Assembly (NCBI GenBank): GCA_032358255.1
Contig: JAULBX010030596.1
Coordinates: 62,001 to 126,000, forward strand
DNA from: Heterotrichella gracilis
Lineage: Eukaryota > Sar > Xanthophyceae > Tribonematales > Xanthonemataceae
Direction of reading: 5' to 3'
DNA length: 64,000 bases
Every line of letters starts with the position of its first letter. Position 1 is the stretch's first letter. The position numbers were made by a program, and so were the translations under genes. Below, in pieces: positions 1,019 to 63,701 of this stretch. The notes under the pieces are model-generated. The model did no database searches. It was given only the letters and a program-made list of their open reading frames with translations, and was not told where the DNA came from.

Positions 1019-4000
1019 ATGTACAAACGAGACTTCGCCGTGCTGCTGCTGGCAGCGTTTGCGGTCTACTACGCGTTGCAAAATGAGGGGACATTCACCT
1101 TCCGAAAAGCCTGGTAAGTCCACCTTGCACCGCCACAGATCACAAGCAATCGCCCATCATCCTCATGCCTAGTTCAGTGGAATTGCTGCATCCCACAATG
1201 TGCTTGGGCAATGCTGGGGGCCTAATCCATTTTTTTTGCAGGTATTACCATTTGGAGGACGAGTGGGAGCACATGCTTGAGGTTCCTGAAGTGTTGCCAC
1301 CGCCCATCGTGGTACGAGCCCCCACCCACCCACCCACCCACCGCATGCGCTTGAACGCACAACACATACCGCAATAAAGTTCGCAGCCACTACATAGGCA
1401 ACGCCAACCCACGCACTTCAACGGTCATCGAGAGCCATGCCTTCCAGCCAGCGCCAGGCAACCAGTATGCACACCTGCGCACACTGTGCATGCATAAGAA
1501 CTCCCATACGCAGTTGAGAAGGTGGTGTGTAAGCTCCATCAAGATAGTGCACTCCACTGTTGTAACACCCCGCGTGAGCACATCCACTGGGCACACCACC
1601 CACCACTCCTACCACCACCCCCACCCACTCAGGCCGACCTGAATGGCGATGGCAAGCCTGAGGTGATCATTGCCACTCAAGATGCCAAGGTGCAAATGCT
1701 CAGCCCCAAACGGGCCGGGCGCCCTGGAGAGGGTTTCGCCCACGCCACCCTAGCAGGTAGGGTTTAGGGTATGCGGCTTAGGGTTTAAGCCACCCCCAGC
1801 AGGTAACCAACACAAAACCTGCACCGTCATGCAAGGCCTTGTGCACGGTGACCATTCGCAATACCTTAAATCAAAACCCTCCCCCTGACAGGCGAAACCT
1901 ACCTCCACGAGAACCACACCCCAGTACCACTACAAGCCTGGGGCACACATGGTACCCATTGTGTAGTTACCAACCCTCCCCGACAAGGGAGAGGGATGGT
2001 TGGTAGCTAAACGATAAACCCTAACCCCAACCTTAACCCAAAACCCTCCCCCTGACAGGCGAAGCCTATCTCCACGAGGACCACACCCAATACCACTACA
2101 ACCCCGGCGCGCGGGCGGTGGCGCTTGCGGCTGGCTACCTTGACCCCCCACCTGTGGAGCTTGTTCGCCCCATGCGCAAGCAGGTGCTGGTGGCGGTGAC
2201 TGCAGATTTCACGGTGGTGTGCTTCGACCACAACCTGCGCAAGCTGTGGAGCAAGCCGATGAAGGTGGGGATGGGTGTGCGGGTTTGGGGGGCTGTGTGG
2301 GGGGCAAGCCAAGGAGAATAGGTGTTGGTGATGTGGTTTTCGATGATGGTGATGTCATTGCAGACTAAACGGTTTGTTGTATTTCATCCTGAGCAAGCCA
2401 TGTGGTGAGGGTGTGTCTGCGGGTGGAGTGGGGTGGGGGGTTGTGTTGGGGCGTACAATCTGCGCAACGTATGGAGCCAATGAAGGGAGGCCACCGCATG
2501 CGCCTTCCTTAAAGGCAATCTACATTGACAGAGTGCATTTAGTTGTCTGCGTACCCCTCCCCACCCTCCCTCTAATTCCCTGCCTCGCACTGCCGCCCAC
2601 CACCACAATCGCCCATCCACCCATCACCATCATCACCCACCACCACCCACCCACCGTTTTTACTCACAGGAGCACATGCCGCACCACGCCACCCTGCGCG
2701 AGGTCGCCATCCTGATCACCAACCACACCATGGAGATTGGGGACAGGGGGGCGATCATACTGGGAGGGAGCATACAGTATGGGGACGCAGCAAAGAAGGG
2801 TGCGGAGAGCACAGCTTTTCACAATCACCATTAACATTGCCATTCTCATGATCATTACCATCGCAACTACAATTGCACCCATTGCCCTTTTCACTGTTGC
2901 GTGATGGCGCCATCCATAAGCATGCATTCTACCACACACATGCACCACCTCCTCCATACACACCACCACTATGTAAACCACATCCCCCCACCACCCCCAG
3001 GTGTTGACGAGGAGGACGAGGTGGGCCATGCGGGTGGTGGTGCCGAGGATGGCGAGCTGCACGAGCTGGCTGATGTGGAGGGTTTGAAGGAGGACGTTGA
3101 CCTCACACGCCACTTCTCGTACTACGCGCTGGAGGGCGGGGCCGGGGACGTGCGCTGGAAGCACGAGGTGGGCCTAGGGTTTTGCTCCATGCCTAAACCC
3201 TTGGAATATACCTGTATACTGCATCAGGGGTGTTTGCGGTGTTGTAAACGTCACTGCAAACCTGTATTCCTTGCCCCCACCTCACTGCTTCCTACCTCGG
3301 ATGGCACTTCTACAATGATGCCATTGGCTCAGCGAGAAGCTCGTCCCTTGCACTCACACGTTGCCCTTCCCCCTCCCCCTCTAAATCCCCCCCGTTCCCC
3401 TATTAACCCTCGATTACCCTCCCTTAGGGGAAGGACTTCCACAAGGACGCAGCCCAGTTGAGCGAGGAGCTCATTCCGCAGCACAACTACCGCCTCACTG
3501 CCTCAGACCTGGTGCAGCGCCACTATGGGGAGGCCTCTTGCAGGGAGTACAGGGAGTCAATACTGGCTGCGCTGCCGCACAGGTGGGTGGGGGGACTGGG
3601 GTGGGGGGAGCAGAGGGGGTGGGGCGGATGAGGGAGCTAGGATGGAGTTGTGGTTGGGTGGGGCTGTGGTGACCGGGGGGACCCCAAAGTAGGGTTTGGA
3701 GGATGGCGGTGAGACGAATCTCTTGCCACCAAGATCAGCTTTTTCCCTCACAGCCTATTGACACCTACACCCTCATTCTCGGGGCGTGGATCACATGACC
3801 TACGCCCTACATAGGGATTCAAAATACGTGATACGCAATACGTAATACGTGGTATTAGGCATTTTTTCCTTTGCATGGAAAAAATACGTTGAAAATGCGT
3901 TGTCCAATAACACTGACGTGACCATGTGTGTGACGCCATTTCACATAAATAAAACTCCATCCATGGCCTAAATCCTGTCTCACAAAGTCACACGCAACCC

Positions 4001-7000
4001 TCAAAGACCAACCAGGACTCAACACAGCACAATTTTACTGTCTATAATGAAAATAGGCCAATACCTGCATATAATAGGAAATGCGCTGGAAATTGACATT
4101 TAATTCATGATTAATATGCGGTCAGTTTTGCAAGCAAAATGGTTGCCTGAAGTCTTGCGAGTCCAGCATGTATCATTGTCGTGGCTCCAGTGCTAAAACA
4201 TGTATTTGAAAGTATGAAAGTGGGTTAAATTGGATGAAATATATAAATCCACGTATTTTTCACGTATTTTTAAACGTATTATCGGAAATAATTAAAAATA
4301 CGTGGTATTACGTATTCTTTTTCGGCAATACGTGGTATTTTGAATCCCTAGCCCTACACCTGTAAGAATATACCCTCCTCCCTCTACCCTCCACCACACA
4401 CCCCTTGCAGCTGGTCCCGCCGCTCCCACACCACCCTCCAGCAGTCAAACTTCTCGGACACCACCATTAAACCCTAAGCAATTATCTTTAAACCCTACAC
4501 CTCTCCCCCTGTAGCTGGTCCCGGCGCTCCGACACCACCCTCCAGCTGTCCCATTTCTCCAAGCACAAGGCGGGCAGGGGAGCACAAAAGGAGCAGCTGG
4601 CGTCCAGGAGGGCGGGGATCCCGGGGGTGCCGGGGGCCCCACCGGTGCGCAAGAATCGCGGCGGGGGGCGCGACGCCTCCAACCCAGTGGCTAATGTTAT
4701 CACCAAGGTGGGTGGCACTTGAGTATGGTAGGAATGTGCTTGGGCGGCGCTGGCCATGTGGTTTGAAATGCTGTTGGACGCTGTTAGCAATGGCGTTTGA
4801 GGGTGGTGGGGGTGCCGGGAGTGCTAGTGGGTGCGCAAGAGCCGTGTGGGATGCCCGGCAGGTACATAACCCAGCAGCCAATGCGATTACCAAGGTGGAT
4901 ACCGTGGCAATATGCTGTTTGACCATGCACTGAAGCTGCTTAGCGGCGTCTGATTCATGCAATTTACAGGGCCTCTCGCGCCAATTGTCAAATGTGGGTT
5001 TTACATTGCATCGCCCCGTTGCCGATTACCCAGATACCCTATGTCGCCACCCCCCCTGACCCACCCGCCACCACCCTCCCCCCACAGGTGGCCAAGGCCG
5101 CGCGCCAGCACCAGCACCGGGGCCACAAGGGCGACCCCCACGCGCACGACTTCCTACCACACAACGTCATCCTCGCTCACCTGGAGCAGGGCATTGAGGC
5201 TGTGCATCTATACACCGGCAGGACTGTGTGCCAGCTGCACCTGCCTTCACCAGGGCTGCATGTGGATTTGAACAGTGATGGTGTGCTGGACCACATCAGG
5301 GCGCTAGGTGGGTTGCGGTTATGGTGGTGGGGTGGGTCGTGGTGGTGGTTGCAGTGGTGATGATAATGTCAGGGTTGGGGATGTGCATCTATGCAGTGGC
5401 ATGACTGTGTGCCAGCTGCACCTGCCCTCCCCAGGGCTGCATGTGGATTTGAACAGCGATGGCGTGCTGGACCACATCAGGGCGCTAGGTGGGTGGCGCT
5501 GGGTTTGAACATTGATTTCCCAGCAGCTCGTCACTTATTCACAAATAAATTAATCGTACATCTGTGTATCCTTATTTACGGATATCCATATGAAAATAAT
5601 CGAATGTCTGTCTATATACAAGGATGGCTGTTGTTCCTGCCGCATGCCTGCATGGCCACACCCTCCCCACCCACCCCTCATTGCCCCCTGATCCCCCTCA
5701 CCCCACCTCCCACCGCAGCCACCAAGCACGACCCCGACGCCCGCCACCACCATGCGCTCCACCGCTGCACCGCCGTGGCCACCTCTGGCATCCCGCCCAA
5801 GGATTCCCTCTTCAACGGCTCCCTGTGCACCCACGACTCAGCTTTTGCCTTCGCACACGATGCCGATGGGGAGCTGAGCACCGCCCCGGTGGAGTTTGCC
5901 CCCCCTATCATGCTCCCCCTGCCGGGCAAGAAGGGGCACTACAGGGGCGGGCAGGGGCAGCACGGCATGGCGGTGTTTCTGAACAGCCACGGGGACCTGA
6001 CGGCGTACAGCGCCACTGGGGAGATGCTGTGGCAGGTGAGGGGGCATGGTGGAATGTAGCCCTAAAAGTAACCCTAAACCCTATTTTTGCACAGTCGTGG
6101 GGTTCTGACGGCGTACAGTGCAATTAGGGGAATGGCCATGCTCATGAGATGCAAGCCTGGGATCCAAAACCTCCGAAACCCTGTACGTTAAGCCCTGTTT
6201 CTGAATAGCCATGGGGACCTCACGGCGAACAGCGCCACTGGCTGTGGCAGGTGAGGGTCGTGTCGGAAGTTAGCAGCCATAAACGTAACCCTAAACCTTA
6301 CTTTGGCATGGGAATCTGATGGTGCACAGTGCGATAAGGGGGATGCACGTGGGATGCAAGCTCATAGTCAAAATCTCTGAATCCCTGTATATACAATTCT
6401 GACTTTGAACAGCCATGAGGACCTGATGGCATACAGGGCTTCTGGGGAGATGAAAGTCAACAGCTCTACACGTAACCCTGAACCCTAATGTTGTACAGTT
6501 ACAAGGATTCAACAATTCATTGTGCAGTTGGGAGGATGGTCATGGGATGCAAGCCCAGAACCCAAACCCCTGAATCCTTGTACGCCTGAATCCCTGTATG
6601 CCCGACTATGATCAGCCACGAGGGACCTGATGGCGTACAGCGCGACGAGGGAGTTGCCGTGGCTCTTGGGAACCTTATCGCAAGGCCTAACCCCAAACCC
6701 TAAACAAGGCACTAGCCGCCAAGCCCCAAGCCCCCCTTTTCCTCCCCTTCTGCAGGAGCAGCTAGCCACCACCTGGACCAACCACCTTGGGTCGCGCGCC
6801 TTTGATCACGTGGCACCCACCCTGGTGGCCATGCCCCTGCGCACCCACGCCATGCCCTCGGTCATCCTGGTGGCGGGTACCCACTACGCTGAGGTGGTGT
6901 CGGAGCACGGCAGGCCACTGGACACCTTTGAGCTGGTGGTGCGTGTGGGGGCGGGTTTATCATTCACCAGCATGTACTTATTTTTCACAAATTGTCATTA

Positions 7001-7834
7001 ATTCATCATCTCCTCGTCAGTTTACTTACCGATGACATTTTTGACAGCAGCCCGTCGCATGCTTGTGAGTGTTGGGACGTTAGGAGTCATCGGGTGCGCA
7101 AGCTGTGCAAGGGTGACTGTTCATGAAATGTAATACTAGAGTGCACAAATCTGGGAACCAATTAGGTCTTGAATAAAGGAAAGGACACTAGCTTGTACTC
7201 TCCAACATGGTCGCCACAGCGTGGCATATCATGCCTGGTTTTTGTCTGGTGCTGTTTCACCTACCCACTCACGCATGGCACTGATCCACCGCAATCCCTT
7301 CCCTGCAGGAGGCTCCAGCGCTCCCCCTGATAGTGGCTGACTTCACTGGTGATAGGCTCAATGACATCATCCTGGTCAGCGTGGGGGGGGTGTATGGCTA
7401 CACACAGGTGGGCACGTGGGGCAGGGTGGGGGGCAAAGTACTTTCGTAGGGTTGTCATGTGGGTTGGCCACCGGGAGAGGCATTCCCCTTTTCAGCATGG
7501 TTGATGTAATCAACATCATGGGAGACTACAGGTTGAGGCCTTCTTGGTTACTAAAAGAATATGATTAAACCCATCTGTGAACAGTGTTCGTCTCCACCCT
7601 CTGACCGCCTTCATCACTCCCCACACACACATCGCCTTCATTCCAATTTACCCCACCCCTGCTCTGTCATCACCCCTCGCCCTTCCACCTCCGCCGCAGG
7701 TGCACCGGCCCGGCGGCATGCCCTTTGCCGCGCTGGTAGGCTGCCTGATCGTGACCATGGCGGTGGTGTATGTCACGCAGCAGAGTGGGAGGAAACCTGG
7801 GGCGAAGCTGCGCAGCACTGACAGGACAGACTGA
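1019..7834 (+). CDS. NERD1: NERD1-like FG-GAP repeat membrane protein (At3g51050 type), 13 exons
   Basis: Exons: 1019-1113, 1242-1311, 1633-1756, 2059-2264, 2670-2799, 3001-3167, 3428-3582, 4515-4707, 5088-5307, 5719-6035, 6756-6938, 7309-7407, 7700-7834. All phases agree and give 697 aa, the length of the Arabidopsis protein as I remember it. An N-terminal signal-anchor helix (about residues 7-20) is followed by the FG-GAP/integrin-like motif P-P-I-V-A-D-L-N-G-D-G-K. A second D-L-N-S-D-G-V-L-D repeat lies in exon 9 and a D-F-T-G-D-R-L-N-D repeat in exon 12. A C-terminal membrane helix (about residues 660-678) precedes a short basic tail. In plants the family is a Golgi/endomembrane protein linked to exocyst function and root growth; its biochemical activity is not known. 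Introns are swollen by exon-edge copies (introns 3, 7, 9, 10) and by a MITE in intron 7. Confidence 0.88.
1871..1938 (+). repeat. Decayed copy of the 5' edge of NERD1-like exon 4, in intron 3
   Basis: The acceptor tract and first about 45 coding bases of exon 4 (acceptor ends at 2058) are repeated with the copy's acceptor at 1891, 167 bp upstream. The copy matches the polypyrimidine tract, CAG and coding sequence with scattered substitutions. The downstream copy is taken as real because its frame continues into the rest of the exon. Confidence 0.85.
3804..4358. mobile_element. Non-autonomous hAT-type MITE in NERD1-like intron 7, with 8-bp target duplication
   Basis: A 539-bp AT-rich element (3812-4350) begins TAGGGATTCAAAATAC and ends with its exact reverse complement GTATTTTGAATCCCTA. 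It is flanked on both sides by GCCCTACA (3804-3811 and 4351-4358), an 8-bp target site duplication as expected for the hAT superfamily. Copies of the word ATACGT/ACGTAT crowd both ends, like the subterminal transposase-binding repeats of hAT elements. No coding capacity is visible, so it would depend on a transposase elsewhere. The intact 16-bp inverted repeats and perfect duplication suggest a fairly recent insertion. Its base composition is clearly lower in GC than the surrounding introns. Confidence 0.9.
4400..4461 (+). repeat. Decayed copy of the 5' edge of NERD1-like exon 8, in intron 7
   Basis: The start of exon 8 (4515, W-S-R-R-S-D-T-T-L-Q) is preceded 104 bp upstream by a copy that begins after a CAG at 4410 and encodes nearly the same residues before diverging. 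The TTTAAACCCTA-type words lie between the two copies. Either acceptor could be phase-compatible locally, but only the exon starting at 4515 stays open. Confidence 0.8.
5382..5500 (+). repeat. Near-identical copy of the 3' edge of NERD1-like exon 9, in intron 9
   Basis: About 100 bases ending exon 9 (through the donor at 5307/5308) recur 181 bp downstream, ending at 5488 followed by GTGGGT. The copy keeps the coding text for C-Q-L-H-L-P-S-P-G-L-H-V-D-L-N-S-D-G with only a few differences. A CAG at 5394-5396 would allow a cassette exon 5397-5488, but in the phase left by exon 9 it meets a TGA after two codons. Confidence 0.9.
6070..6665 (+). repeat. Array of about five decayed copies of the 3' edge of NERD1-like exon 10
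   Basis: Exon 10 ends at 6035 with the text for N-S-H-G-D-L-T-A-Y-S-A-T-G-E. Recognisable copies of this stretch lie near 6096-6127, 6203-6252, 6302-6335, 6407-6452 and 6610-6662, the 6203 copy even keeping a GGCAGGTGAGGG donor-like end. The spacers repeat too: each carries CCCTAAAC-type words followed by a GATGCAAGCC(C) stretch, so the unit is roughly 100-200 bp of exon edge plus intron start. Confidence 0.8.
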
Positions 7835-7939
7835 GGAGGGAGGGCGCAATATTGGTGGCAACAGGGCAGGCTTTGTGACCAATGGCTTGCGCCCGGACGG
7901 GCATGCTAGGCTGCATGGTTGCGCAGTCCTGGTGTCAAC

Positions 7940-8180
7940 ATCAACAGGGCAGGCATCATGACCAATGGCTGTGGTGTAAGATGCAGCGGTGTGGTAGGAG
8001 GCCGGGGGTAGAGCTGCGCAGCACTGACAGGACTGACTGAGGGGCTGTGGGCAAGGTGGGGGGCAAAACCACCGGACAGGTTGCGCGGGGGGATCGTGAC
8101 CACGGCTGTGGTGTACATCATGCAGCATATGGGGCAGGAGGCCGGGGGCAGAGTGGAGTAGCAGTCACAGGGCTGACGGG
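7940..8180 (+). repeat. Decayed copies of the NERD1-like terminal exon in its 3' flank
   Basis: The text around the last codons (GCTGCGCAGCACTGACAGGA) recurs at about 8013-8034. The membrane-helix coding text (GATCGTGACCA, then GGTGGTGTA and a CAGCA stretch) recurs at about 8093-8135, before a third AGGAGGCCGGGGGCAGAG stretch. These copies lie after the TGA at 7834, so they are not intronic. Confidence 0.75.
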
Positions 8181-8586
8181 GGGGGGGGGGAGGGCGCATG
8201 TTTGCACCGGATGGGCATTGACAGGCTGGGCGGGCACATGAGTTTGGTAGGACAGTACTGGGGATGCCAGGCAGGTTGTTCAGCGCTTCTGACATGCGTT
8301 AAAAGCGGGCCGGTCTGACTAGCGGACCACTGACAGGCAGCACTGTATGCCTGTGCTTGTGCACCTTGCCTAAGAATCACCCCTCCTAAACTTTAGGCTA
8401 AAGCGATTGGGGTTGGAATAACACATTTTGTGTGTGGTTGTCAACGCTTTGGTAACTGTTCAACCGGGACCAGGCTTGGCAACTGTGGGCAGCAACTGCT
8501 TATGGAAATAGCAACGGTATTTTGACAAAAGGTGTGGTCATGCTGGGTCATGGATTGCTAAAAGGGGGTTGGTCTCGATCTATGCA

Positions 8587-12332: not shown

Positions 12333-15300
12333 ATGCTGAGGGTGAACAGCAACAATGACCTGATCGTACCACCCTTTGAGTGTGCCTGGCTAACAGGAGA
12401 GGAACTCACGCTGCGGGAGGGAGCTGGGTGCGTGAGCTTTGAAGTAAAAGGTGCGACTTTTACTGGGCTGAAGAGTCTCGTGGTCCCGTTTCGAAACTTG
12501 TTACAGCGAGGTTGAAGAGGGCGATGCTGTGCAGGGGACAACGATGTGACCGTTATTTTGCGGCCAACGCCGGGCAGCAGGCGTTGGCAGCACCTGATCA
12601 GAAGGGACAGCAGCAGCAGCAGCAACCTGAGCAGTCACCGGCTGGGGGTGGAGAGCAACTACACTATCATACTGGGCAGCCACAGGAATAGCTGCCTGAA
12701 GATAGAGAAGGATGGCCAGCTGTGCGCCCAGGTACACCCTTTTCTCCACTCCTTGGTGTTGTAGCTTTTGCATATCTACTTGTGTTTCCAACCTGCCCTG
12801 TCTGCCACTGGGTTGCACAGCAGCACCTGAACTGCACAGCACAGCACGGCACACTACCTGAAACCACAACACCTTTTGAAAGCACAACACTGCAAAGCAG
12901 TCTGCTGTCTACCACTGAAAAGACAGCACAGCCCCAGGCATAGCACCAGATCCCATCCACCTCACGCCACAAAGCGCTCTGCCTACAGGTGGAGAACGTG
13001 CCTGGTGCCAAGCTGTCCCCCTCAGGCTTCAGCAAGTTCTGGATCAACTACCACAAGGGAGCAATCAGCGTGGGCTCCGGAGCCCCCGGCACAGACACCT
13101 TCTACGCCTGGACAGACCCCGACCCCATCCCAGACATAAAATACGTGGGGCTCAGCTCCTGGGACAAGCACGTGGGCTACCGGCGGATCGTCATGCTCCC
13201 CGCAGCCAACTTCCACCAAACCGGTACACAAAGAGCACCCGAGGAGCCCGACAGGATCCCTCAGTACCCTCCCCTTGCACAGCTGGCAGCCGAGGCGGTG
13301 ATAGGGGGGCTGTCGCCCCACACCGTGTTTGACGTGCTCCTGGTAGCGGAGCTGCTGGGTGGGGTGGTGCAGCCCATCTACGAGGCGGGGGTGGCCTACG
13401 CAGCGCAGCACTTTGAGGGCGCGGTGGCGGAGGATGGGCATGGGTTGTGCCAGCTCAGCGTGGGGACCCTGCTGGACCTGCTCAAGTGCCCTGCACTGGT
13501 GAGGGCTAGGTGGCAAGCATGGCACCTTGGCTGCTCAGATTTAGAACCATCTGCGTCGCCCGCCGCGTCAGCCTTGTTGTGCGGATGGATAAAAGGAGGC
13601 TATTGGCTTACAAAGCTGCATGACATGGGGTGGCGTTGCATGGCATGCGCAGTACACCTGGCAGCGCCACCTCTTCGGTTTTTGAAAGTGGGTTTGCACT
13701 TGATGCGCCCACCTGCCTAACCACCGTCCCACCAAACCTAACTTCTAAACCCTAAACCCTATCGTCTGCCCCACAGGACGCGGAGGAGAAGGCTGTGTTT
13801 GACGCGGTGCTGATGTGGTCCGAAGCTGCCCCTGGTGCCCGCCCCCTGTGTGACGTGGAGGTGCTGCTGCCATTCATACGCTTCCCGCTCATGTCACACC
13901 CGGAGCTGCAGGAGGTGGGTTGCATTCATAGGGTTTTAGGGTTACGTTAGGGTTTGGGCTGACGTGGAGGTGCTGCTGCCGTTCATACGCTTCCCGCTCA
14001 TGTTGCACCCGGAGCTGCAAGAGGTGGGTGTCGTATATAGGGTTTTAGGGTTAGGGTTAGGGTTTGGGTTTGGGCTGACGTGGAGGTGCTGCTGCCCTTC
14101 ATACGCTCATGTCGCACCCTGGGCTGCAGGATGCGGGGGCATCTTTGGTGGAGGTATAGGGTCTGGGGTGGCGGTATAGGTTTTTGGCTGAAAATTGAGA
14201 GGCTATTGGGTTTTCGTATGTTGTGCGCTCATGTTGCACTTATAGCTGCAGGGGAGGTGGTGGAGATTATGCTTGTATGGTACACATGTTCACGGCAGAT
14301 TACGTCTGTGCATTTACACCCGCTCCGCTTCGCCCTTCGCAGGTTGGTTGCCACCCCCTTGCCTCCACCAGCCATCTGCTCCAGGACCTAATTCAGGAGG
14401 CAATGGACTGCAATGCTACGGATGGGCAACTGGCAAAGGTGGGGCGCACTACAAGCGTTAAGTGTTTAGGGTTTAGGGGGGATGGGGGTCCGATGGTAGG
14501 GTAACGGGGTAGGTACAGCATTGACCACCATGACCCAGGGCCAAACAACTGGACCCAAAACCAGGCTCTTAGCACACAGATTCTGGGGCCCCATTTTGTA
14601 TCTACCTGTGGAAGGGGGATGGCTGTGCGCAAGGAAGCAACCCATCCCATGGTAGGTTTGCATGGTATGAGTTCTTCTCGAGGGGATGAGGAGGTGCAAT
14701 CCTGTAGGAATCCGGCTGATCCTGTTCCCTACCCTCCCGCAGCGTGCGTGCGTGCCCCTCCCGCTGGAGGGCAAGCGCTCCCTGCGCGCCCTCACCCCCC
14801 TTGAGGCCGCTGCCACCTGGCGATTCCAGCGGCGCCACTCCGCTGCCTGCCAGGAGCTGCTGTACATCTCGGATGGGGATTCTAATGGGGTGTGCCATCA
14901 CCTGGGGACCGAGTACGGTACGCGGCCGTGGGTCAACCCCATGGCTGCGGGGAGGCTGCACGTGTATGCGTCATCGCCGCACTGCCGCTCCACGGATGGC
15001 AAGGTGGGTGGTTCTTCAATCTTGCAGCTGAAATAGTCCGTGTGATCGGTATGGGGCGCACTGCCAGCGGCCAAAGCACCAGTGCCTGTACCTGGTGCAG
15101 GGGTACTTGCGCACACGGGATCCCACACATGCATCCACAGCCACGCCCCAGGACATCTAATCTATGTCTCCATTGTATATACATGGTCGCTCATCTGTAA
15201 CCAGGCGCTTGTTCGTCAGCTTCATCTTTGCTTTCCCCCCCCATCTTATCTCAATCACTCCCCCTCTCCTGCCAGGCCCTCGTCTCCCGCAACTTCGTGC

Positions 15301-17731: not shown

Positions 17732-20228
17732 CTATGGGGTGAACTTGGTGGCGGCGGCGAAGCCGTTGACAGTCTGCACAAAGAAACACACACAGGGTCA
17801 GCACTGGGTGGCGCAGTTGCAGGGAAAAGACCTCGCCAGCTGAAACTTGATGCCGGGCTAGCAACGCAGGTTTGCATCCCATCCCATCCCATTCCACAAC
17901 ACAGGCAAGTGTGCGTGCAGAAGATAAAAGAAGATTGCGTGTGTGCAGCTGCTTGCAAGCACTTATCCATGGGTCAGCCAGGTGGCCTGTTTACTATCTA
18001 GGGTTTGCAACTCAGCAAAGTCGTCGGTGAGGTTCTCCATGGATTATTTCCAAGCACTCAGGCAGGTTCTGACCCACTCTGTTCTCGACCCTTGCCAGTC
18101 GCACATCCATGTGGACGAGCAGCTTGCAAGGGTCGTAACCAGAGGCTGGGCAAGACCCGTCCCGAGTCCATGGAATTACCCACAGGGTTTTTACAAGTGG
18201 CCAAGTGTCGGTTCAGGGTTTTGCAATTCATCCTTGGGTCGGTCCAGGTTAGGTTCTCCACAGGGTTTTAGGATTGGCCAGGTGGTCTGTCTAGGGTTTA
18301 GGGTTTTACGACTCACCCATGGGTCAGCCAGGTGGTCGGTGAGATTCTCCACGGGGCTCTTGCCGGTCACGATGGCCTGCACGAAGAAGCCGAACATGGA
18401 GAACATGGCCAGGCGCCCGTTCTTGATCTCCTTCACCTTGAGCTCGGCAAGGGTCTCGGGGTCGTCGGCCAGGCCCAGGGGGTCGAAGTTGCCGCCGGGG
18501 TAGACCTTGTCCAGGCCCTCGCCGGCGGGCCCGCCGTTGACGCGGTAGCCCTCGATGGCTCCCATGAGGATCACCTGGAGATGGGGAGTGGCGGGTGAGC
18601 GGGTGGCGTGGGGGATGCTCTTGAGTATGATGTGGGTAGCGAGTAGGGGTGCCATGGACTAGTGCCTGGTGGGATGCGGGGCCAAGAGTTGGTGGTGGCA
18701 GGCTTCTGAAGGTGCAGCATGTGGTGGGTGGTGATGAGGTGCGCAGTGCTCTGGCATGTGGTGCATGTGGCATCCCATGCCATCCCCAAAGGGCTTCATC
18801 GATGATGCTCTGCAGAAGCGTACCTGGGTGATGACGATAGCCACGATGGACTGGGCGTGCACCAGGGAGGAGTTGCCCAGGTAGTCCAGGCCGCCGTCGG
18901 CGAAGATCTGTGCTCCGGCCTTGAACCACACGGGCTCGCCGAATGTGATGCCGCCGTAGGTGGACAGCAGCTCGGGGGTGAGGCACCCCAGAGCGCCGAG
19001 CATGGCCCAGCGAGCGTGGATCACCTCGATCTCGCGGTAGCGGGCGAAGGTCTCGGGGTCGGCGGACAGGCCGGCGGTGTCCCAGCCGTAGTCACCTGCG
19101 GCAGGAAGGTCATTCAATATGTCGGTTGTGTGCAGTGTCGATGAGGTGGGTTCCGGACTGGCAATAAGGAGGTGCTGAATCGCAGGGCTATCCAGGATGC
19201 TCGGTAACTAGGTGCAAGAAGCTAACCGTTCGCTGCATTAGTGTGTCCCTGAACTGGTGAAGAAGCTGGCCCATGGATAGCGCATTGATACTTTTCAGGA
19301 TGGTGCATCCCCTCTTTCGGGAATGCGGGCTGATGGGTCTTTCCTGTGTGTCGAGTTCGCACCTGGGTACTCCCCGGTGAGGTAGGATGGCACTCCGGTG
19401 AAGGGGCCAAGGAACTGCAAGGCAACAGAGTTGTAAATTGGTCGTTGTCCATGTGACCGACTCTCGAAGCAACAGCACAAGGGTGCGACTCGCAGTGCAT
19501 CACCAAGCAGCAGGTGGTTACGGCAGGGGTACAGAGGATGCAAGTATCAGGGCAGAACAGGCGTGAATTTGGCACTGGCGGCGTGATTGAGTAGTGCATT
19601 GGTGCAATGCTGCAGATAGACAGCTGTGATAGGGCCACGCTATACAGGGGGCAGCGTTGCAGGATACGCAAGATGGGTTGGGCCATCAACCCTTTGTTGC
19701 TCGCGGTTGTGCTTACCGTGGGGCGGTCGGCGCCATACCTGCAAGGAGAATAGAGTGGCGTTAACCGCTGTGCGGAAAACAAGAGCGCATGATGGTGCAG
19801 GGCGAATACTCTTCTTTGGCGCGGAAAACACGATAAGGTCGCGATAGGCATCGAGATGCCGTGCAACAGGGCAAACTTTCAAGGGGGCAAGCACGCACCA
19901 GAAGCTCTCGGGCTCCACCTTCTTGCTCTTGACGGTCCTGCGCATCTCCGTCACCCTCTGCATAGATAGGCACAAAACCGTCTTAGTCACACCCCATGAA
20001 ACACCTCACGGCCATCAGCCACACCCACATCGCCCCCCACAAGCCCCACACCACGTTGACAACCCGCGCACACCCACAGAGCCCAGATGCCTCCAAGCAC
20101 GCGTGCTTTACAATACATGTTGTCGCTTCTGTCCGCAAGTGACGTACCTTGGAGGAGGAGGAGGAGCCGCTGGCCTTAGCGGCCAGGGCGGTGGTGCTGC
20201 CCAGGAAGGTCTTGGTTGCCATGGCCAT
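17732..20228 (-). CDS. LHCBM: Major light-harvesting chlorophyll a/b-binding protein of LHCII, 7 exons
   Basis: Exons (5' to 3' on the minus strand): 20148-20228, 19899-19957, 19717-19738, 19363-19414, 18824-19095, 18317-18574, 17732-17773; 261 aa. It binds chlorophyll a/b and carotenoids in thylakoids as part of the trimeric PSII antenna. The Ser/Ala/Lys-rich start (M-A-M-A-T-K...S-S-S-S-S-K) is a transit peptide. The trimerisation-type motif is present as W-Y-G-A-D-R (residues about 47-52), followed by G-D-Y-G-W-D. Helix B carries [13 protein letters not shown] and helix A carries [15 protein letters not shown], the two chlorophyll-binding ExxHxR/ExxNxR motifs. The end is A-A-A-T-K-F-T-P. 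The unusually short exon 3 (22 bp) is supported by phase. Intron 6 holds copies of the exon 6 edge. Confidence 0.95.
17963..18300 (-). repeat. Decayed copies of the 3' edge of LHCII exon 6, in intron 6
   Basis: The exon 6 end (plus-strand text CCCATGGGTCAGCCAGGTGG, then TCGGTGAG and TTCTCCA) recurs near 17968-18043 and, more decayed, near 18237-18290. TCTAGGGTTT- and TTTAGGGTTTT-type words lie between the copies. The real edge (donor just below 18317) is the one joined to the open exon. Confidence 0.8.
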
Positions 20229-43756: not shown

Positions 43757-44118
43757 CGTGCCAAAGGCCGGTTCCCACCACCTCCCAGCGTTTGCTTATT
43801 ATGGAGACCACAGCAGCAGGTTTGTCACACTCGCAGGCACCAAGCTTCAGTCGCCAACTTAGACTCCAGCTTCAGCAACACCAAGGCCTCCTTTACAACC
43901 TTTTCACACGATGTTCACCACGGCAGGGACGCAGACGAGAGACACACGCCAGGAACTACACAGTTATGCGACAGTTGTCCCGTTGTTTTGCGATGCGGGT
44001 ACTGTTTTACAGAGTTTGTATGCCACAGGCGCCGGCAGGCTGGGTGCAGGCTGGTCTGGGTCTACTAGTCGATTGACAGCGCTGCACCCATAACTAAGGC
44101 CCTCTCATAAATTTGCAA
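43757..44118. other. Divergent spacer between RPB10 and U6
   Basis: It should carry the RPB10 Pol II promoter (left) and the U6 Pol III upstream elements (right). Overlapping small frames have no motifs. I do not find a plant-type USE (RTCCCACATCG). Confidence 0.5.
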
Positions 44119-44127
44119 GAATATAAA
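44119..44127 (+). promoter_or_regulatory. TATA box of the U6 gene
   Basis: GAATATAAAGG is centred about 28 bases before the U6 5' end, the spacing expected for plant and algal Pol III type 3 promoters. Confidence 0.75.
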
Positions 44128-44150
44128 GGTGCCATCCACACACAGATATT

Positions 44151-44168
44151 GTCCTTCGGGACATCTGT

Positions 44169-44200
<32 letters not shown>

Positions 44201-44252
44201 GGCCCCTGCGCAAGGATGACACGCACAAATCGAGAAATGGTTCCAAACTTTT
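44151..44252 (+). ncRNA. U6: U6 spliceosomal snRNA
   Basis: The sequence opens with GTCCTTCGGGACATCTG, the 5' stem-loop and following bases. It contains ACAGAGAAGATTAGCATGGC (the catalytic ACAGAGA box and the U4-pairing region) and the conserved GATGACACGCA segment. It ends ...CGAGAAATGGTTCC before the T-run. All key catalytic bases, including ACAGAGA and AGC, are intact, so it looks functional. Transcription by Pol III is inferred from the TATA box and oligo-T end. Confidence 0.97.
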
Positions 44253-44255
44253 TTT
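44249..44255 (+). terminator. Pol III oligo-T terminator of U6
   Basis: Seven T residues directly follow the conserved U6 3' end (CCAAAC). Confidence 0.85.
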
Positions 44256-46482: not shown

Positions 46483-47039
46483 CTTTTCCCGACAACATTG
46501 GTACCTTTGACGTTATTACAGGTCAGGACAGCTGAATACGGTGGCCTGTATGTGTAGCCCAGGCCATAGTTGTAAACCCTAAGGCGTAACCCTGCCCTTG
46601 GGATTGATCGTCTTGAGCCTCATGGGATGAAACTCGAAGTGCCACTCTAATTCAAATTTTGAGTTGAAAGCAGAGCACCAGCAACTTCGCCGATACCCAG
46701 AAGATAGAGTTAAGTGGTTGAAGCCCGACCTGCTGCAGCCCAAGAAAGTGGTTGTGGTACTCGACTGGTTGGGCTCGCGTGCTCTAGTGCCCACCTCCAC
46801 TCCACCGAGCTTATTCCTCTTGCAGTGGTGGTTAGCTCAGGAGTTCATATGAGCAGAAAAACGGACTCCGGTCAGCCTGGTATTTATTTAAACCCACTTT
46901 CCACTATGGTGGTTGCTGTCTCAACGACACTGACGTCTGAATAACCCGCTCGCCTACACCACCTCCTGTACTTGGGTCCCTGTTTTTGAAAGTGCATACC
47001 ACACCTCAACCACCCATCACCCTCCAAACTCCCGGGGCG
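46483..47039. other. Divergent promoter region between the unknown plastid-type gene and POLA2
   Basis: About 560 bp between two divergent starts. It contains small frames without motifs and GTAAACCCTAAGGCG-type words near 46572. No clear E2F site is seen (TTCCCGAC near 46487 misses the consensus). Confidence 0.5.
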
Positions 47040-50000
47040 ATGGCGAGCGCCATCACCAGGGCGTTCACCGAACGGGCCTTCAAGTTCGAGGACGACATCG
47101 TTGAGAAGGAGTGTGCCGTGCTTTCATCCACCTTCAGCCTCACACCAGCCAAGCTCAGCGAGCAATATGAACGCTTCCTCCTCAGCAGGTCAGATGGAAG
47201 ACATCAGACCGGGGCATGTACGATTAAAATGTTGTGGACGCTCTTTGAGTACCGCGCAACGGCGCCTGGGCTGTGTGTGCACCCACCCATGGGGTTATAT
47301 ACCCCATGCTTTGCCATGCTCACCTCCCCAAGTTTCACCTTGACAAACCCACCACACACTAACATCAACACAAACCCTACATCTGGTCCTATCAGTGTTG
47401 TTACGCCTGAACGGTCACCTGAATGGACAGCGAACCTCCACATCCACGATCAACCCTCTGCCATTCTCACCCCCTTCCCCTCGCCCTCACCTTTCCCTCC
47501 CCCCTTGTCCCCAGCAGCGGCGGCTCCTCCTCTCGCGTCACCGGCAAGCTGGTGGAGGGCTTCGGCACCTACCTGCGCCAGAACCAGGCAGCGCTGAAGA
47601 AGGAGGCAGCGGTGCCGCAGAGGAAGTGAGTGGGGTGGCAAGGGGGGGCCAAAGGGGGAGTTGGGCAGGAGGGCAAGGGGGGGAGGTGAAGGGGGCATGT
47701 AGCCGTGTGGAAACTGTGGAGTGTGCACAGACGGTTTTTGCTTGCCAAGGCCCATCACGTGCAGTGGGAGTGGGCGGTTGGTTTGGAAGAGACCCAACCC
47801 CCACTTCCACACATCGCCACACCCACGCTCATCTTTACATCCCCTCGCCCTCCGCTAACAACCCCCCCTTTCCGTCCCCACTCCCATCTCAGACCCCTTG
47901 TGGATGTACGCGGGGCCGCCTTCAACCGCCCATCCCCCACCGCCGCCGCCAAGCCCCCCCTCACCCCCGTCCCCACAGCCACACCCACAGCCGCAGCAGC
48001 AGCCGCAGCCCCCACCACCCACCTGACCAGCACTTTCAAGCAGCGCCAGAATGCGGGGGCACTGGTCACCGCACTCAACCCCCACCTGGAGCTGGACAAG
48101 GCGCGGCAGGTAAGGGTTTGTGGCTAGGGTTTTAGGCTAGGGTTGAAGTTTCAGGTTTTAGGCTAGGGTTTTGATGCAGCCCGGCGAGGGCACAGGTCGC
48201 AGGCCCTGACAAGGCGCGGCAGTAAGGGTCTTGCCTAGGGTGTTGCTCAGGGTTCTCCTGAGACTTTGTTGCAGCAACAAACCACGTGAGGAAACAAGTG
48301 CCACCGCCCTCCACTAACCACTAACCACCGCCGACACCCACACCCCGCACCCCCCCCCCCCAGGATTCCATGGATGTGGACCGTGACCAGCCCCCTCAGC
48401 TTGAGCTGCTGGGCCACCCACTGGCCTCAGACTGCAAGCTGGTGTCGGAGAAGCTGGAGCACAAGGTGGGGCAAACGGGGGGGCCAAAACCCTACTGTGT
48501 AGACGGTAAACCCTAGGGCTAGCATTTGGTACAAACCAGGATGGGACTGCTCCGTGCCAAAATTATCATGTACTAAAAAAAAGCATTATTGTTGTGCAAG
48601 GTCCTCTACCACTCCAGTTAAAAGTAACAGGATGCTTTGCCACACACGTGACTATACATCCCCCCCCCCCCCCCAACCACCCACCACCCACCACAGGTCG
48701 CCTACCTGGAGGCCCGCATCACCTCCGCTGAAGCCGCCTGCGAGGGCGCGGGGTTGGGCCCCTGCGCACCGGTGGGGGCAGCGGCACAGGAGCCGCAGCT
48801 GTTTGCTGGCAGGGTGGCGTGTGACAGCGAGGGGCATTTGAATGCACAGTCGGTGGTGCTTGAAGGGAGTGTGCGCACCAGCCAGGGGGGGAGGGTGCGG
48901 CTGGATGTGGGGAAGCTGGAGGGGTACCGGCTGTTCCCTGGGCAGGTGGGTGGCGGGAGGGGGGTGGTTGTGCCGGGTTGTGGCGGGCTAGTATGGTTGG
49001 TCAGTCATTCTGCAACGTTGATATGCAGGGTGCGTGATCAGTAGCACTGTCACATGTAGGGTGTATGGAGGTGTATGGAGGGTGTGTGATCAGGCATTCT
49101 GCAACACATGCCTGTATGCTCGTGCAGCACCCTTCCCCCCCAACCCCCCCCACATGCGCCACATGCACCACCACCTCTGCGCACATCTTTAGCATCCAAT
49201 ACATTGTAAACGCCCCCGCAACCCTACACCCTAGATCCTAAACAAACCCTGATCTTGCAGGTGATCGTCGCTGGCGGCTCCAATCCCAGCGGCCACTGCC
49301 TTGTCCCCCAGCAGGTCCTGGGATCCTTCCCAGCCCCCATGCTGGCCACGCAGCCCAGCGACTTGAAGCACTTTGCGCACGTGACAGGTGGGGCAGGGAA
49401 ACCCTTCCCAAATCCTTCATCTTTTGTACTGCGCACTGGGAGTAAACAGTGACATCCTCAGTTTGGGTTTGATAATGCCTTATTTTACTTCTATTCTGGA
49501 ATATGCAGGTAAACAGTGGCATCCATCAATTTGGGTATAACATTCCGGTGTTTTACTTGTATTTTGGAAATGCGCACAAATTGTGCAAATATAGAAGATC
49601 ATGACCTGCCGCAATCTGTACCTTAACACCCTCCCACCCACCCCAACCCCAACCCCGTACCACAGGCGAAGCAGGCCTCTCCATCGTGGTGGCAGCGGGT
49701 CCCCTCACAGTGTCCGCAGACCTTGACTACGCCCCCCTTGAGGCCCTGGTGGCGCACTGCGTTGCCACCCGCCCTGACATGCTGGTCATTATGGGCCCCT
49801 TTGTGGACTGTGACCACCCCTCGCTGGCCACCGGCTTGCTGGAGGTCACCTACCAGCAGCTGTTTGAACAGGTGACGAAGACCCTGGTGTAGGGTGTAGG
49901 GTGTAGGTTAGGGTTGTTTTGTGGTGAACCCTAAAATCCTATAACTGATTGAGGTCCAGAACCCCCGTCCAGACATGCTGGTGATCATCGGCCGCTTTGT

Positions 50001-51591
50001 GGCCTATGACCACCCCGCGCTTGCCACTGGGTTAGGGTTTAGGGCGTAGGGCTTGCCGTATAGGGTTTGGGGTTGTTAGGGTATACCATGTACACCAGGA
50101 TGCTTATGCTCATGTAGAGTTTGGAGAGCATTGTCTAGGGTTCAGAACTTTCCAGTGTAGTCCAACGTCCATGTTCATGAAGCAGCTTTCTTGCGTGTAA
50201 ACATCTCGCTCTCGCCACTGGGCTGCTAGGTTATTCCCCTCATTCCCCCTTATCTCCCCATTCAGGTGCTGTCCCGCCTGTCCCCCCTCCCCCCCTCCTG
50301 TCAGCTGCTGCTCATGCCCTCCTCAAGGGACATGCACCACGACCCAGTGTACCCACAGCCACCCATGGAGCTGGGCAGCAGGTGGGTGGGTGGTGACAGG
50401 TTGGGGGCGCATATGATCAGGGGCGCTGATTGATGAAAATGTCTAGTACTGATAGCCACTGTTGAGGAGAGACATCGCTATATTTAGCCATACCATAGAT
50501 ATCCCTGTATGTCCCCGCTGCATAGCTACCCACTCATTCCCTTCCCACGCACCCCCTTGCCCACGCAGTTCAGGCATATATATGCTATATTATTATAAGT
50601 AATTACACTGACGCACCCCCCTGTTCCTCCCCGCAGGCTGCCCCTGGACACCACCACCCCCCTGCCCAACCCCGCAACCCTTAGGGTAAACGAGGTGGTC
50701 ATCGGTGGCACCTCCACAGACTGCCTGAAGCACCTGGTAGGGGGGGAAGTCAGCGGGGGGGCGTGCAACGGGGAGGACAGGCTGGGTGCAATGGCAGGGC
50801 ATGTGATTGGGCAGGGAAGGTGAGAAGAGAAAGGGTATGCATGCAGTATATCAGCAGCAACAGCATGGGTGAAAGTAGAGGGATGAGTGAGGGAGGGGGA
50901 GGGTGCGCGTCGTATGCATCTCACTGATTGGCGTGTTGATGAATATTTGAAGGGTTACAAGGGGTGTTGGGTGGGGGGGTGGCATGGCTCGTTGTAGCTG
51001 TCATGTCATTCCCTCAAATAGTGCTGTTACGCAGGGCACCTGGGCAGCAATGTAGCAATCAATCAGGGGATTTTGGCTTGTGCTGACCTTGTTCCAGTGC
51101 TCATTGCAAGTGCCTGTGGCCCTTGTTTACTCTGCCTGATGCAACGATGCAAAACAACAGTGGCCAAAGCCATGCACCTTACCCCACCTCCTTCACCCCT
51201 CACCCCCTCCCCTTTGCCCCCCTCTTGCAGCTACTACCCCCTGTACCCCCCTGCACCGGGCACCCTCCTGGACACCTCCCTGGCACCCGCCCTGGCCATC
51301 CCCACCACCCCAGACATACTCCTCCTCCCCTCTGACCTGGCACCCTTCGCTAAGGTTGTGCCAGTGACAAACAGCCTCGCAAACGGTGGTGGTGGTGGAA
51401 CCCTCGGTAGGGTTGTGGCGGTCAACCCGGGCAGGCTGGCAAAGGGGACCTCGGGCGGCACATTTGCGCACATTTTTGTGGGGGTGCACCCCGAGGGGGC
51501 TGCGCTGGCGGCCGGTGGGGAAGCCTCCACCAACGGCGCCGTCCCAGCAAATGTGGCGGACCGCTGCCAGGTGCACATCACGCGCGTGTAG
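47040..51591 (+). CDS. POLA2: DNA polymerase alpha subunit B, 10 exons
   Basis: Exons: 47040-47188, 47515-47625, 47893-48109, 48364-48465, 48697-48945, 49261-49387, 49666-49871, 50266-50381, 50637-50819, 51231-51591; phases agree, 606 aa (human 598). It is the regulatory B subunit of the polymerase alpha-primase complex that starts every Okazaki fragment. The N-terminal helical part precedes an Ala/Pro/Thr-rich linker. The OB fold is in exons 5-6 (L-F-A-G-R-V, then Y-R-L-F-P-G-Q-V-I-V-A-G). The inactivated calcineurin-like domain follows with V-A-A-G-P-L-T, D-M-L-V-I-M-G-P-F-V-D, L-L-M-P-S-S-R-D and V-I-G-G-T-S-T-D. The family C terminus is Y-Y-P-L-Y-P-P then P-D-I-L-L-L-P-S-D-L. A donor-like GTAGGG after 50736 was rejected because read-through gives conserved text. 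Exon-edge copies occur in introns 3 and 7. Confidence 0.93.
48168..48236 (+). repeat. Copy of the 3' edge of POLA2 exon 3, in intron 3
   Basis: The exon end and donor (GACAAGGCGCGGCAGGTAAGGG at 48095-48115) recur as GACAAGGCGCGGCAGTAAGGG around 48209-48229, one base shorter. TTTTAGGCTAGGGTT words lie between. Confidence 0.85.
49436..49580 (+). repeat. Tandem duplication inside POLA2 intron 6
   Basis: The stretch GTAAACAGTG-x-CATCC...TTTGGGT...TTTTACTT-x-TATT-x-TGGAA occurs twice, at about 49441-49507 and 49509-49575 (67-68-bp unit). It is purely intronic. Confidence 0.85.
49965..50045 (+). repeat. Copy of part of POLA2 exon 7, in intron 7
   Basis: The text for P-D-M-L-V-I-x-G (real copy 49772-49800) and the D-H-P-x-L-A-T-G text recurs at 49970-50030 and then runs into GGGTTAGGGTTTAGGGC. 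Unlike other cases the copied part ends before the exon edge. Confidence 0.88.
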
Positions 51592-52163: not shown

Positions 52164-52219
52164 GTTCACAATGGAACACGCAAGTCAATTTAATTCAACT
52201 TCCAGTTTGAGAGGCATAT

Positions 52220-52280: not shown

Positions 52281-52904
52281 TTGCATGACAAAAACAACAT
52301 TAGGCAGCCAAATCCCTTTGCGGGCGAATCGGATCGGATAGCAGCCAAATTTCTATATATTCGTTCACACTCGAGCATTCTGACATTTGTCAGAGAACAG
52401 AGGGGGTGCCAGCTGGATGAAAAGTAAATAGAGCCGCATGCAAAGGCCCATGATACAATAACTGGACGCACCCTGCCCTCCCATCAATATTGCAAATGGC
52501 ACTCCTGCCTCACCATGCGCCATTGTCCAGACTACAGTACAGCAAACTAAATGGCAGCATGCACTGCTGGTTACGCCAAAGGGTAAAGCGCTCCGTACAA
52601 TAATAATCACACATGCATTGTAAAACCTCGATTGACAACGCTTGTCTGGTAGTACCCGGGTTGCTGCAGTGGTGTGGTTGCCTGTGTTGCTCAAAGGAAA
52701 ATAAATTTGAAAACATATAAGAGGAGGTATATACCTCTTCATGCCGCTCGCCTAAAAAGCAAATTCGCATACAATTACAAAGCGTGACTCCCTGCACTCC
52801 CCTTTCTCGCATTCCCTCCCCTCGCCCACCATACCCTGCCCCTGTTTGATGAGCGCTTGTCCCCTACCCCCCTCCAGCCCCCCCTCCGCTTCCCCCATCA
52901 CCCC

Positions 52905-53000
52905 CTCCCCAGCTTCAGCCTTGACACTCTGTTCACTGCCTCTAGCTCCTGAAACAGGCCCGTTTGTGGCCAACATATTCGGCCTGGAGCACCCCCTGGT
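52905..53000 (-). repeat. Decayed copy of the RPC2 terminal exon in its 3' flank
   Basis: TGTTCACTGCCTCTAGCTCC followed by TGAAACAG resembles the last-exon text TGTTCATTGCCTGCAGCTCC followed by TGGAACAG at 53146-53173, about 220 bp away. It lies beyond the stop codon, as in the NERD1-like gene. Confidence 0.75.
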
Positions 53001-53112
53001 GCGCAAATGCTGCAGCCGCTTTGTATCCACCAATTGGTGCGCCCGCGTGTAGCATGCGGCCATAGATGCTGGCGACTCCCCATTCCCTCCCCTCCCACTT
53101 CCTTTCCCCTCC

Positions 53113-63701
<10,589 letters not shown>

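Follow-up and report, generated by a model that had tools for sequence, protein, structure and literature searches.

Interstitial telomeric sequences, internal gene duplication and the small tandem duplications that break repair can leave have all been described before. A survey of internal gene duplication by Gao & Lynch (2009, PNAS) is said to have found 8–17% of genes affected, and patch-mediated repair was reportedly described in rice by Vaughn & Bennetzen in 2014. Here we describe a window of 64 kb, i.e., the whole stretch of 64,000 nucleotides that was analysed, from Heterotrichella gracilis (Xanthophyceae; assembly GCA_032358255.1, contig JAULBX010030596.1, positions 62,001 to 126,000 of the forward strand), in which the edges of exons are copied into adjacent introns and telomere-type tracts crowd behind the 5' splice sites. 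The explanation that we favour, with moderate confidence, is that recurrent break repair at exon–intron borders (fill-in, templated copying and telomeric filler) has left scars in the introns. All results apply to this one window, and its exon borders are gene-finder predictions.

Internal gene duplication, as cited in passages of PMC3443670 and PMC4974935, likewise consists of direct duplications of intragenic segments with intronic and exonic parts; the difference is that here six of nine modelled genes are affected, several times in some, and borders have more families than a uniform model yields. In the potato RdRp gene, according to an excerpt of PMC4974935, a duplication spanning the 3' side of an intron and the 5' side of the next exon made a new intron (the AGGT model), and such a segment may also cross a splice junction, taking the splice signals along; here, however, the copy lengthens an existing intron. 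Passages of PMC8355091 relate that small tandem duplications arise from break ends by CST–Pol alpha fill-in, and these direct duplications resemble our abutting families, whereas most families here are spaced, with gaps usually unlike their flanks, and cluster at exon borders. Introners, as outlined in part of PMC9860276, are also a single process shaping many introns of a genome, but they form dispersed families, while the exon copies described here adjoin their source and occur in none of 510 comparisons elsewhere in the window.

For mammals, passages of PMC7215372 report that telomeric repeats were inserted as breaks were repaired, at some loci along with a direct duplication of the target or with random filler (in the horse, 3/66 and 12/66 loci, respectively), and at 31 of 40 informative horse sites the exposed nucleotides were in register with the telomeric repeat. 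Those short interstitial sequences share with ours their length, their occurrence in either orientation, their near absence from exons and the occasional duplication or filler at the site. The intron share of the human ones fits random insertion, as far as the same excerpt goes, whereas our tracts are about eight times denser (tract bases) or five times denser (heptamers) in introns than in other non-exon DNA, and crowd at the 5' splice site. Telomeric tracts can also destabilise adjacent DNA, including an 800-bp tract in an APRT intron (passages of PMC6410037), and TTTAGGG is given as the ancestral telomere unit in green algae in part of PMC8226300. In the open-licence literature we found no case of this duplication density, border preference or donor-side telomeric crowding. 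If our explanation is true, introns hold a countable and datable record of their own lengthening, and break repair favours exon–intron borders, which is relevant to the origin and the length of introns. Each copied edge would then be a natural experiment in splice-site choice, the age of the copy being readable from its divergence.

A gene finder was trained on the POLD1 exons (located by phmmer) and its output was curated by hand, giving 9 genes with 91 exons and 82 introns. Exons comprise 13,679 bases, introns 28,815 and the remainder 21,506, the last including unmodelled genes, e.g., MYND. Self-BLAST (bits ≥ 32, spacing 15–800 bp), with five block shuffles as the control, returned 68 direct pairs, some of low complexity, and 2 inverted pairs, against a mean of 0.2 in shuffles. 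A second listing comprised self-BLAST pairs less than 1000 bp apart, each annotated for its overlap with exons; blastn appears to be insensitive to direct spacings below about 50 bp, and this listing is incomplete there. When exons were aligned with introns (score ≥ 32), copies appeared in 27 of 164 comparisons with adjacent introns against none of 510 with control introns (Fisher-tested), the controls being second-next introns (0/146) and introns of other genes in the window (0/364), so that introner-like dispersal was not seen; one of 310 reverse-complement comparisons gave a match. Exon-edge copies in introns are therefore confirmed as real and far above chance. A copy of a flanking exon is present in 25 of the 82 introns, of the upstream exon in 18 and of the downstream exon in 9 (difference between donor and acceptor side not significant, p = 0.12), and the homology-checked POLD1 and RPC2 genes, with 39 introns between them, contribute 12 copies on the downstream side and 7 on the upstream side.

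The preliminary description had counted more than 25 such events in the 64 kb and named eight genes, and we count 28 exon-anchored families against 5 intron-internal ones, all direct duplications of intragenic exon or intron segments. Six of the nine modelled genes carry copies at score ≥ 32, i.e., FG-GAP, FAMeT/BACK, LHCII, POLD1, POLA2 and RPC2, and for these the observation is confirmed; none was found at that score in RPA2 (0/5 introns), RPB10 (0/1) or geneX (0/3), the PDZ-like gene of that description, which has weaker pairs only, and MYND has to be withdrawn as an example. Copies lie 67–312 bp from their source (median 130.5; hand list of 28 families, with 7748/7955 included and the POLA2 pair 50617/51237 omitted), a wider range than the 40–200 bp first claimed. 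The families richest in pairs are those of POLD1 exon 26887–27001 (6) and FG-GAP exon 5719–6035 (5). The duplications are as follows.

1863–2110, plus strand: FG-GAP, 5' edge of exon 2059–2264 (2030–2110) copied upstream at 1863–1944 (82 bp, 88%, 85 nt gap)
4386–4559, plus strand: FG-GAP, 5' edge of exon 4515–4707, copy at 4386–4455 (70 bp, 81%)
5187–5498, plus strand: FG-GAP, final 121 nt of exon 5088–5307 with donor, copy at 5370–5498 (131 bp, 90%)
5974–6663, plus strand: FG-GAP, 3' edge of exon 5719–6035, copies at about 6084, 6196, 6406 and 6609 (five pairs, one abutting family)
7747–8190, plus strand: FG-GAP, 3' edge of the model's last exon 7700–7784, copies at 7955–8066 and 8092–8190 (self-BLAST)
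13851–14137, plus strand: FAMeT/BACK, 3' edge of exon 13777–13914 with telomeric tract, three abutting copies, period 109 (self-BLAST, Tandem Repeats Finder)
17961–18354, minus strand: LHCII, 3' edge of exon 18317–18574, weak copies (self-BLAST, exon–intron alignment)
24592–24736, minus strand: POLD1, 5' edge of exon 24500–24612, copy at 24712–24736 (25 bp, 96%)
25716–25944, minus strand: POLD1, 3' edge of exon 25883–26049, copy at 25716–25792 (78 bp, 83%)
26531–26958, minus strand: POLD1, 3' edge of exon 26887–27001, copies at 26531–26651 and about 26787–26825 (82–92%)
27118–27302, minus strand: POLD1, inner segment of exon 27237–27383, copy at 27118–27158, no splice site (self-BLAST)
27511–27904, minus strand: POLD1, 3' edge of exon 27841–28019, abutting copies at 27675–27755 and 27514–27591 (self-BLAST)
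27982–28142, minus strand: POLD1, first 38 nt of exon 27841–28019, copy at 28105–28142 (95%)
28869–29215, minus strand: POLD1, 3' edge of exon 29170–29412, abutting copies, period about 99 (self-BLAST)
29617–29936, minus strand: POLD1, 3' edge of exon 29897–30050, copy at 29617–29755 (147 bp, 80%)
34258–35323, plus strand: geneX, weak exon-edge pairs 34258/34366, 34519/34705, 34866/34975 and 35085/35294 (all below score 32)
48095–48254, plus strand: POLA2, 3' edge of exon 48031–48109, copy at 48208–48254 (self-BLAST)
49442–49573, plus strand: POLA2, intron-internal tandem without exon, practically abutting, period 67 (self-BLAST, Tandem Repeats Finder)
49768–50033, plus strand: POLA2, inner segment of exon 49666–49886, copy at 49964–50033, then telomere-type repeats (70 bp, 83%)
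52904–53172, minus strand: RPC2, end of last coding exon, copy downstream at 52904–52957 (self-BLAST)
53272–53465, minus strand: RPC2, 5' edge of exon 53114–53298, copy at 53376–53465 (self-BLAST)
54333–54603, minus strand: RPC2, 5' edge of exon 54131–54389, copy at 54519–54603 (87 bp, 89%)
54929–55068, minus strand: RPC2, intron-internal abutting tandem, period 65 (self-BLAST)
55431–55726, minus strand: RPC2, 3' edge of exon 55696–55891, weak copy at 55431–55463 (self-BLAST)
55806–56132, minus strand: RPC2, inner segment of exon 55696–55891, upstream copy at 56061–56132 (self-BLAST)
56198–56425, minus strand: RPC2, 3' edge of exon 56384–56602, abutting copies, period 96 (self-BLAST)
58555–58760, minus strand: RPC2, 5' edge of exon 58352–58580, copy at 58689–58760 (self-BLAST)
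59794–59947, minus strand: RPC2, 3' edge of exon 59920–60075, copy at 59794–59853 (self-BLAST)
60159–60356, minus strand: RPC2, 3' edge of exon 60298–60468, copy at 60159–60220 (self-BLAST)
60624–60738, minus strand: RPC2, 3' edge of exon 60698–60844, copy at 60624–60671, the short gap being a telomere-type repeat (self-BLAST)
62408–62643, minus strand: RPC2, 3' edge of exon 62624–62842, abutting copies, period 99 (self-BLAST)

In edge-spanning pairs a copied 3' edge sits downstream and a copied 5' edge upstream, as had been described, with one doubtful exception in POLA2 (50617/51237, exon 10; 73%, 36 bits), in which a 5' edge has its partner 620 bp away in the intron downstream; this pair is one of the 18 upstream-exon copies. 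The side rule had been described as expected from repeated local tandem duplication but is uninformative on the mechanism, because it already follows from the retention of one intact exon. Two pairs touch an exon at both copies, i.e., the acceptor–acceptor pair 48656/49626 (low complexity) and the LHCII exon–exon pair 18446/19043, and at least three copies are exon-internal, with their source 15–49 nt from the exon edge. Introns that bear copies are longer (median 411 nt against 278 nt in the others, 25 vs 57 introns, p = 0.0005), in line with the lengthening first proposed, although long introns also offer more room for copies.

The copies have decayed to many degrees, as originally noted, with identities from about 67 to 96%. 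Across 27 hand-chosen alignments, some sharing a family, differences between copy and exon number 42, 39 and 78 at codon positions 1, 2 and 3 (of 462, 464 and 463 sites), and the 78 of 159 at position 3 do not depart from one half (p = 0.87). This 1:1:2 pattern is as expected for a freely drifting copy beside an exon changing at synonymous sites only, and the copies are therefore non-coding and of varied age; the intronic parts show 62 differences over 442 sites. Differences that follow codon position and span such a range of identities also make an assembly or sequencing artefact scarcely credible, even in a single window, and the copies lie in many separate introns and are direct in 68 of 70 local pairs. 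Among hand-chosen alignments with 17 distinct donors and 6 acceptors, 12 copied donors keep GT (7 of the 17 are identical to the true donor over the 9-mer) and 5 copied acceptors keep AG, so decoy splice sites are on offer, as the preliminary description proposed. With drift of 8.5% per site, about 84% of copied splice sites would be expected to stay intact.

Since many copies are contiguous through the donor or acceptor into intron sequence and local pairs are nearly all direct, RNA-mediated copying by reverse transcription of spliced mRNA was rejected and the origin placed at the DNA level. Most aligned copies also include a splice site together with some intron sequence, so the intron predates the copy, which contradicts, for the recent events, the birth of introns by tandem genomic duplication of exon segments under the AGGT model. 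Duplications are abundant in these genes, and the potato case gives that model a precedent, but its diagnostic pair (exon end plus intron start resembling intron end plus next exon start) was found in none of the 82 introns (100-nt windows, score ≥ 32), and we regard it as very unlikely here. Three copies that the gene finder had called as exons (5435–5488, 26581–26646 and 27692–27745) were removed; a reading as alternative or mutually exclusive exons was rejected for the two in POLD1 by their absence from the homologue alignment and for the one in FG-GAP by its identity to the exon, with no homologue used.

The preliminary description had spoken of repeated local tandem duplication across borders. 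Local duplication at the DNA level stands, but only 7 of the 28 exon-anchored families (29 listed, the LHCII exon–exon pair being dropped) are true tandem repeats that abut directly, as break-end fill-in would leave them, and the others are spaced. Of 27 gapped families, 20 have gaps with no more homology to the flanks than the best of 60 shuffles, and decayed tandem filling was rejected as a general account of the gaps. Seven gaps exceed the shuffles by 1 to 9 points (the POLD1 pair at 26884, POLA2 exons 3 and 8, RPC2 exons 18, 6 and last, and a 937-bp RPC2 pair) and would fit tandem duplication plus decay. Tandem duplication covers the data in part only, because most families are spaced with gaps unlike their flanks, unless later deletions are invoked.

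The preliminary description had named as its own refutation that segments inside introns, away from exons, are duplicated just as often; this was put to the test and did not refute it. Within gene spans, 28 families are exon-anchored and 5 intron-internal, i.e., 85% anchored, in a count that omits low-complexity pairs and spacings below about 50 bp. This bears on the simplest competing account, which we consider rather unlikely, namely that neutral tandem duplication is uniform and purifying selection on exons keeps the copies recognisable. Such a process would explain the direct orientation, the neutral decay and the side rule without any targeting, and the abutting families alone (7 anchored, 2 internal) fit it. 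We simulated it with a model that accepted nearly all duplications leaving an intact exon and let sequences mutate by substitution, indel and deletion, some settings adding random insertions as well. The 232 replicates, spread over nine settings, gave mean anchored shares of 54–58% and a maximum of 79%, and internal families averaged 16.5–22 with a minimum of 8, against 5 observed; one earlier trial gave 19 anchored and 19 internal. Neither higher turnover, more indels nor random insertions raised the anchored share, and these were rejected as a cause of the bias. Duplications planted in real introns at the observed divergence were recovered equally (146/150 internal vs 147/150 anchored), as they were at the observed match lengths (119/150 vs 118/150), so detection does not explain the anchored excess. 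Although the comparison depends on a neutral model, several settings agree, and intron-internal duplications are rarer than uniform duplication predicts. Uniform duplication also leaves the donor-side telomeric tracts unexplained.

Telomere-type tracts, a feature absent from the preliminary description that may contribute to the cause, make up 4.0% of intron sequence (1,143 of 28,815 bases, compared with 0.25% in shuffles), 0.5% of the remainder (112 of 21,506) and 0.02% of exon sequence (3 of 13,679). They form short degenerate arrays, of which 57 runs match at 12 or more of 14 positions and reach up to 42 nt. Introns contain 418 starts of TTTAGGG-cycle heptamers, and the density of exact heptamers falls from 78 per kb (positions 6–20) to 49 (positions 20–40) and 17 (positions 40–60); farther in, it is 4–13 per kb over the remaining donor half and 4–17 per kb over the acceptor half. 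About a third of introns thus have telomeric repeats next to their donors, i.e., 29 of 82 have a heptamer 6–40 nt from the donor, against 7 of 82 in mid-intron (p = 5e-5) and 11 of 82 in the last 40 nt; in POLD1 and RPC2 the donor-side figure is 15 of 39. Control motifs (14 other cyclic orders of the same letters) occur at the donor side of 0–5 of 82 introns, and 1 of 91 exons has a heptamer in its last 40 nt. Among intron 8-mers, CCACCACC is commonest (82 occurrences), followed by AAACCCTA (70). No chromosome end was recognised in the window. Four tracts serve as examples.

1756–1789, plus strand: telomeric tract flush with the 5' splice site, FG-GAP intron 3
29131–29168, minus strand: telomeric tract directly 3' of the POLD1 intron 5 donor, within a duplicated unit
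56333–56374, minus strand: C-rich telomeric tract (coding strand) following the RPC2 intron 14 donor, within a duplicated unit
58318–58352, minus strand: telomeric tract flush with the 5' splice site, RPC2 intron 11

By intron, donor-side tracts are G-rich in 15 and C-rich in 14, and this balance speaks for an event at the DNA level over an RNA signal. On the acceptor side 2 are G-rich and 9 C-rich, a skew that would be expected if G-rich tracts spoil the pyrimidine tract. Selection might instead have kept both copies and tracts as functional elements, e.g., decoy sites, splicing enhancers or telo-box-like sites for proteins that bind double-stranded DNA. The concentration of tracts in the first 40 nt of introns suits this idea, as does the C-rich bias at acceptors (9 of 11 introns), which suits a pyrimidine tract, and orientation-independent protein binding would permit both orientations at donors. 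We nevertheless think it distinctly unlikely, since the copies change in the neutral 1:1:2 codon pattern, GT is lost in 5 of 17 copied donors, G-rich and C-rich tracts are used equally at donors, which speaks against an RNA-level signal, and 53 of 82 introns have no donor-side heptamer.

Tracts and copied edges co-occur side by side, to a modest extent. Telomere-like tracts are present in 18 of 32 introns with any local duplication against 11 of 50 others (p = 0.002), and 178 tract bases lie near copy boundaries against 110 under rotation (p = 0.028). Upstream-exon copies are associated with donor-side tracts (11/18 vs 18/64, p = 0.013) and show no association with acceptor-side tracts (2/18 vs 9/64). 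For copies of the downstream exon the acceptor-side comparison gives 3/9 vs 8/73 (p = 0.10), or 4/10 vs 7/72 (p = 0.025) at a lower score threshold, and there is no association with donor-side tracts (2/9 vs 27/73). At FAMeT exon 13777–13914 and POLD1 exon 26887–27001 the tract lies inside both copies and therefore came first there, and the order of tract first and duplication second is possible.

Taken as scars of break repair, these features could arise in a few steps. Local errors of DNA repair or replication would fall preferentially at exon–intron borders, where the filling-in of staggered break ends would give abutting tandem duplications across the border, and templated insertion with filler during repair, or tandem duplication followed by deletion, would give spaced edge copies. 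Telomerase, by adding repeats to a broken end, could leave short tracts in either orientation within the first 40 nt of an intron. Only scars that spare one intact exon would survive, and so would end in introns and decay neutrally, and telomeric tracts already in place may be fragile, giving rise to more duplications. Breaks as the common cause, and telomerase as the source of the tracts, are what we infer; transcription-coupled stress as the reason for breaks at borders is our guess. A telomeric repeat placed after AG|G gives a usable donor in either orientation (GTAGGG or GTAAACCC, both of which are seen). We therefore suggest, tentatively and with low confidence, that in this lineage borders are recurrent break sites often healed by telomerase, that telomeric insertion may found or re-found the 5' ends of introns while copies of exon edges are laid down by templated repair, and that introns grow, and perhaps are born, from patched breaks.

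Several points weigh against break repair at borders as the explanation. When breaks were placed within 40 nt of intron ends in a hotspot model, 66–75% of families were anchored and the observed share was attained in 3 of 72 replicates, so that this model reproduces the border bias better than the uniform one, yet only partly. Abutting families are 7 of 28 anchored ones against 32–55% in the uniform-model runs. Two intronic tandems of less than 50 bp spacing lie outside the 28 vs 5 count together with the low-complexity pairs, and if the bias from decay is taken at its full geometric factor (68% anchored, a crude upper-bound estimate) the excess has a p of only 0.024. The p values that link tracts with copies are modest and come from small numbers and ten Fisher tests (five at each of two thresholds), beside which one more Fisher test and one rotation test were made. 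The insertion events are read indirectly, from this one window, the tracts might instead be functional DNA motifs, and the 39–47 kb stretch, RPA2 and RPB10 have little or no duplication.

The two short-spaced intronic tandems were found by Tandem Repeats Finder, with a 34-bp unit at 34121–34188 and a 27-bp unit at 55935–55991. The former (97% matches) lies just 5' of the acceptor of geneX exon 34192–34273 and is missing from the self-BLAST list, probably owing to its short spacing. The 937-bp pair in RPC2 (56732–56834 and 57669–57772; 104 bp, 88%) is intronic with an exon between its members and might be a dispersed repeat instead of a local duplication.

A scan of viral contigs with part of RPC2 and part of LHCII found no relative. 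Two genome contigs with matches to LHC were set aside as contaminant-like: L001 shows no intron where it matches and lacks exact copies of TTTAGGG and CCCTAAA, with one other rotation of the heptamer present, and L002 looks bacterial outside its match. A scan of viral contigs for the donor plus telomere pattern gave six loci (L003–L008) with 0–2 local pairs each, which we judged to be chance; L003 and L004 look like one stretch, and L004 has an ArdC-type domain (two of six frames scanned).

As for the gene models, POLD1 aligns nearly end to end with its solved homologue (query 6–1097 on chain 7–1099), and so does RPC2 with a human chain (32–1155 on 12–1129), except for about 11 residues after SEHIQ; a small exon of RPC2 was probably missed at about 57400–57905 (minus strand), in keeping with that shortfall. 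Pfam or PDB matches support the FG-GAP, RPA2, POLA2, FAMeT/BACK, LHCII and RPB10 models, with Pfam PF00504 and chlorophyll a-b binding proteins in the PDB for LHCII, while a Pfam search with geneX gave no match. Taken by themselves, the LHCII gene and the TTTAGGG-type repeats would suggest a green alga as the host. The gene first described as NERD1-like is by Pfam an FG-GAP-repeat protein. Predictions dropped in curation were FG-GAP 8031–8055 and 8080–8160, which overlap copies, a minus-strand model at 13.1–14.9 kb and the tiny first exons of RPA2, FAMeT, geneX and RPB10. A tRNA search of the window found none.

In contrast to the neighbouring genes, the stretch 39000–47000 has no local pair that reaches 24 bits at distances up to 600 bp, which is why MYND, whose exons are unmodelled, fails as an example. 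At least three genes lie in it, i.e., MYND, an RPB10-type (RNA_pol_N) gene at 42883–43756 (minus strand) with at least three exon pieces, of which the model has two and lacks the first exon, and a U6 spliceosomal RNA gene at 44151–44252 (plus strand; Rfam RF00026, 101.5 bits).

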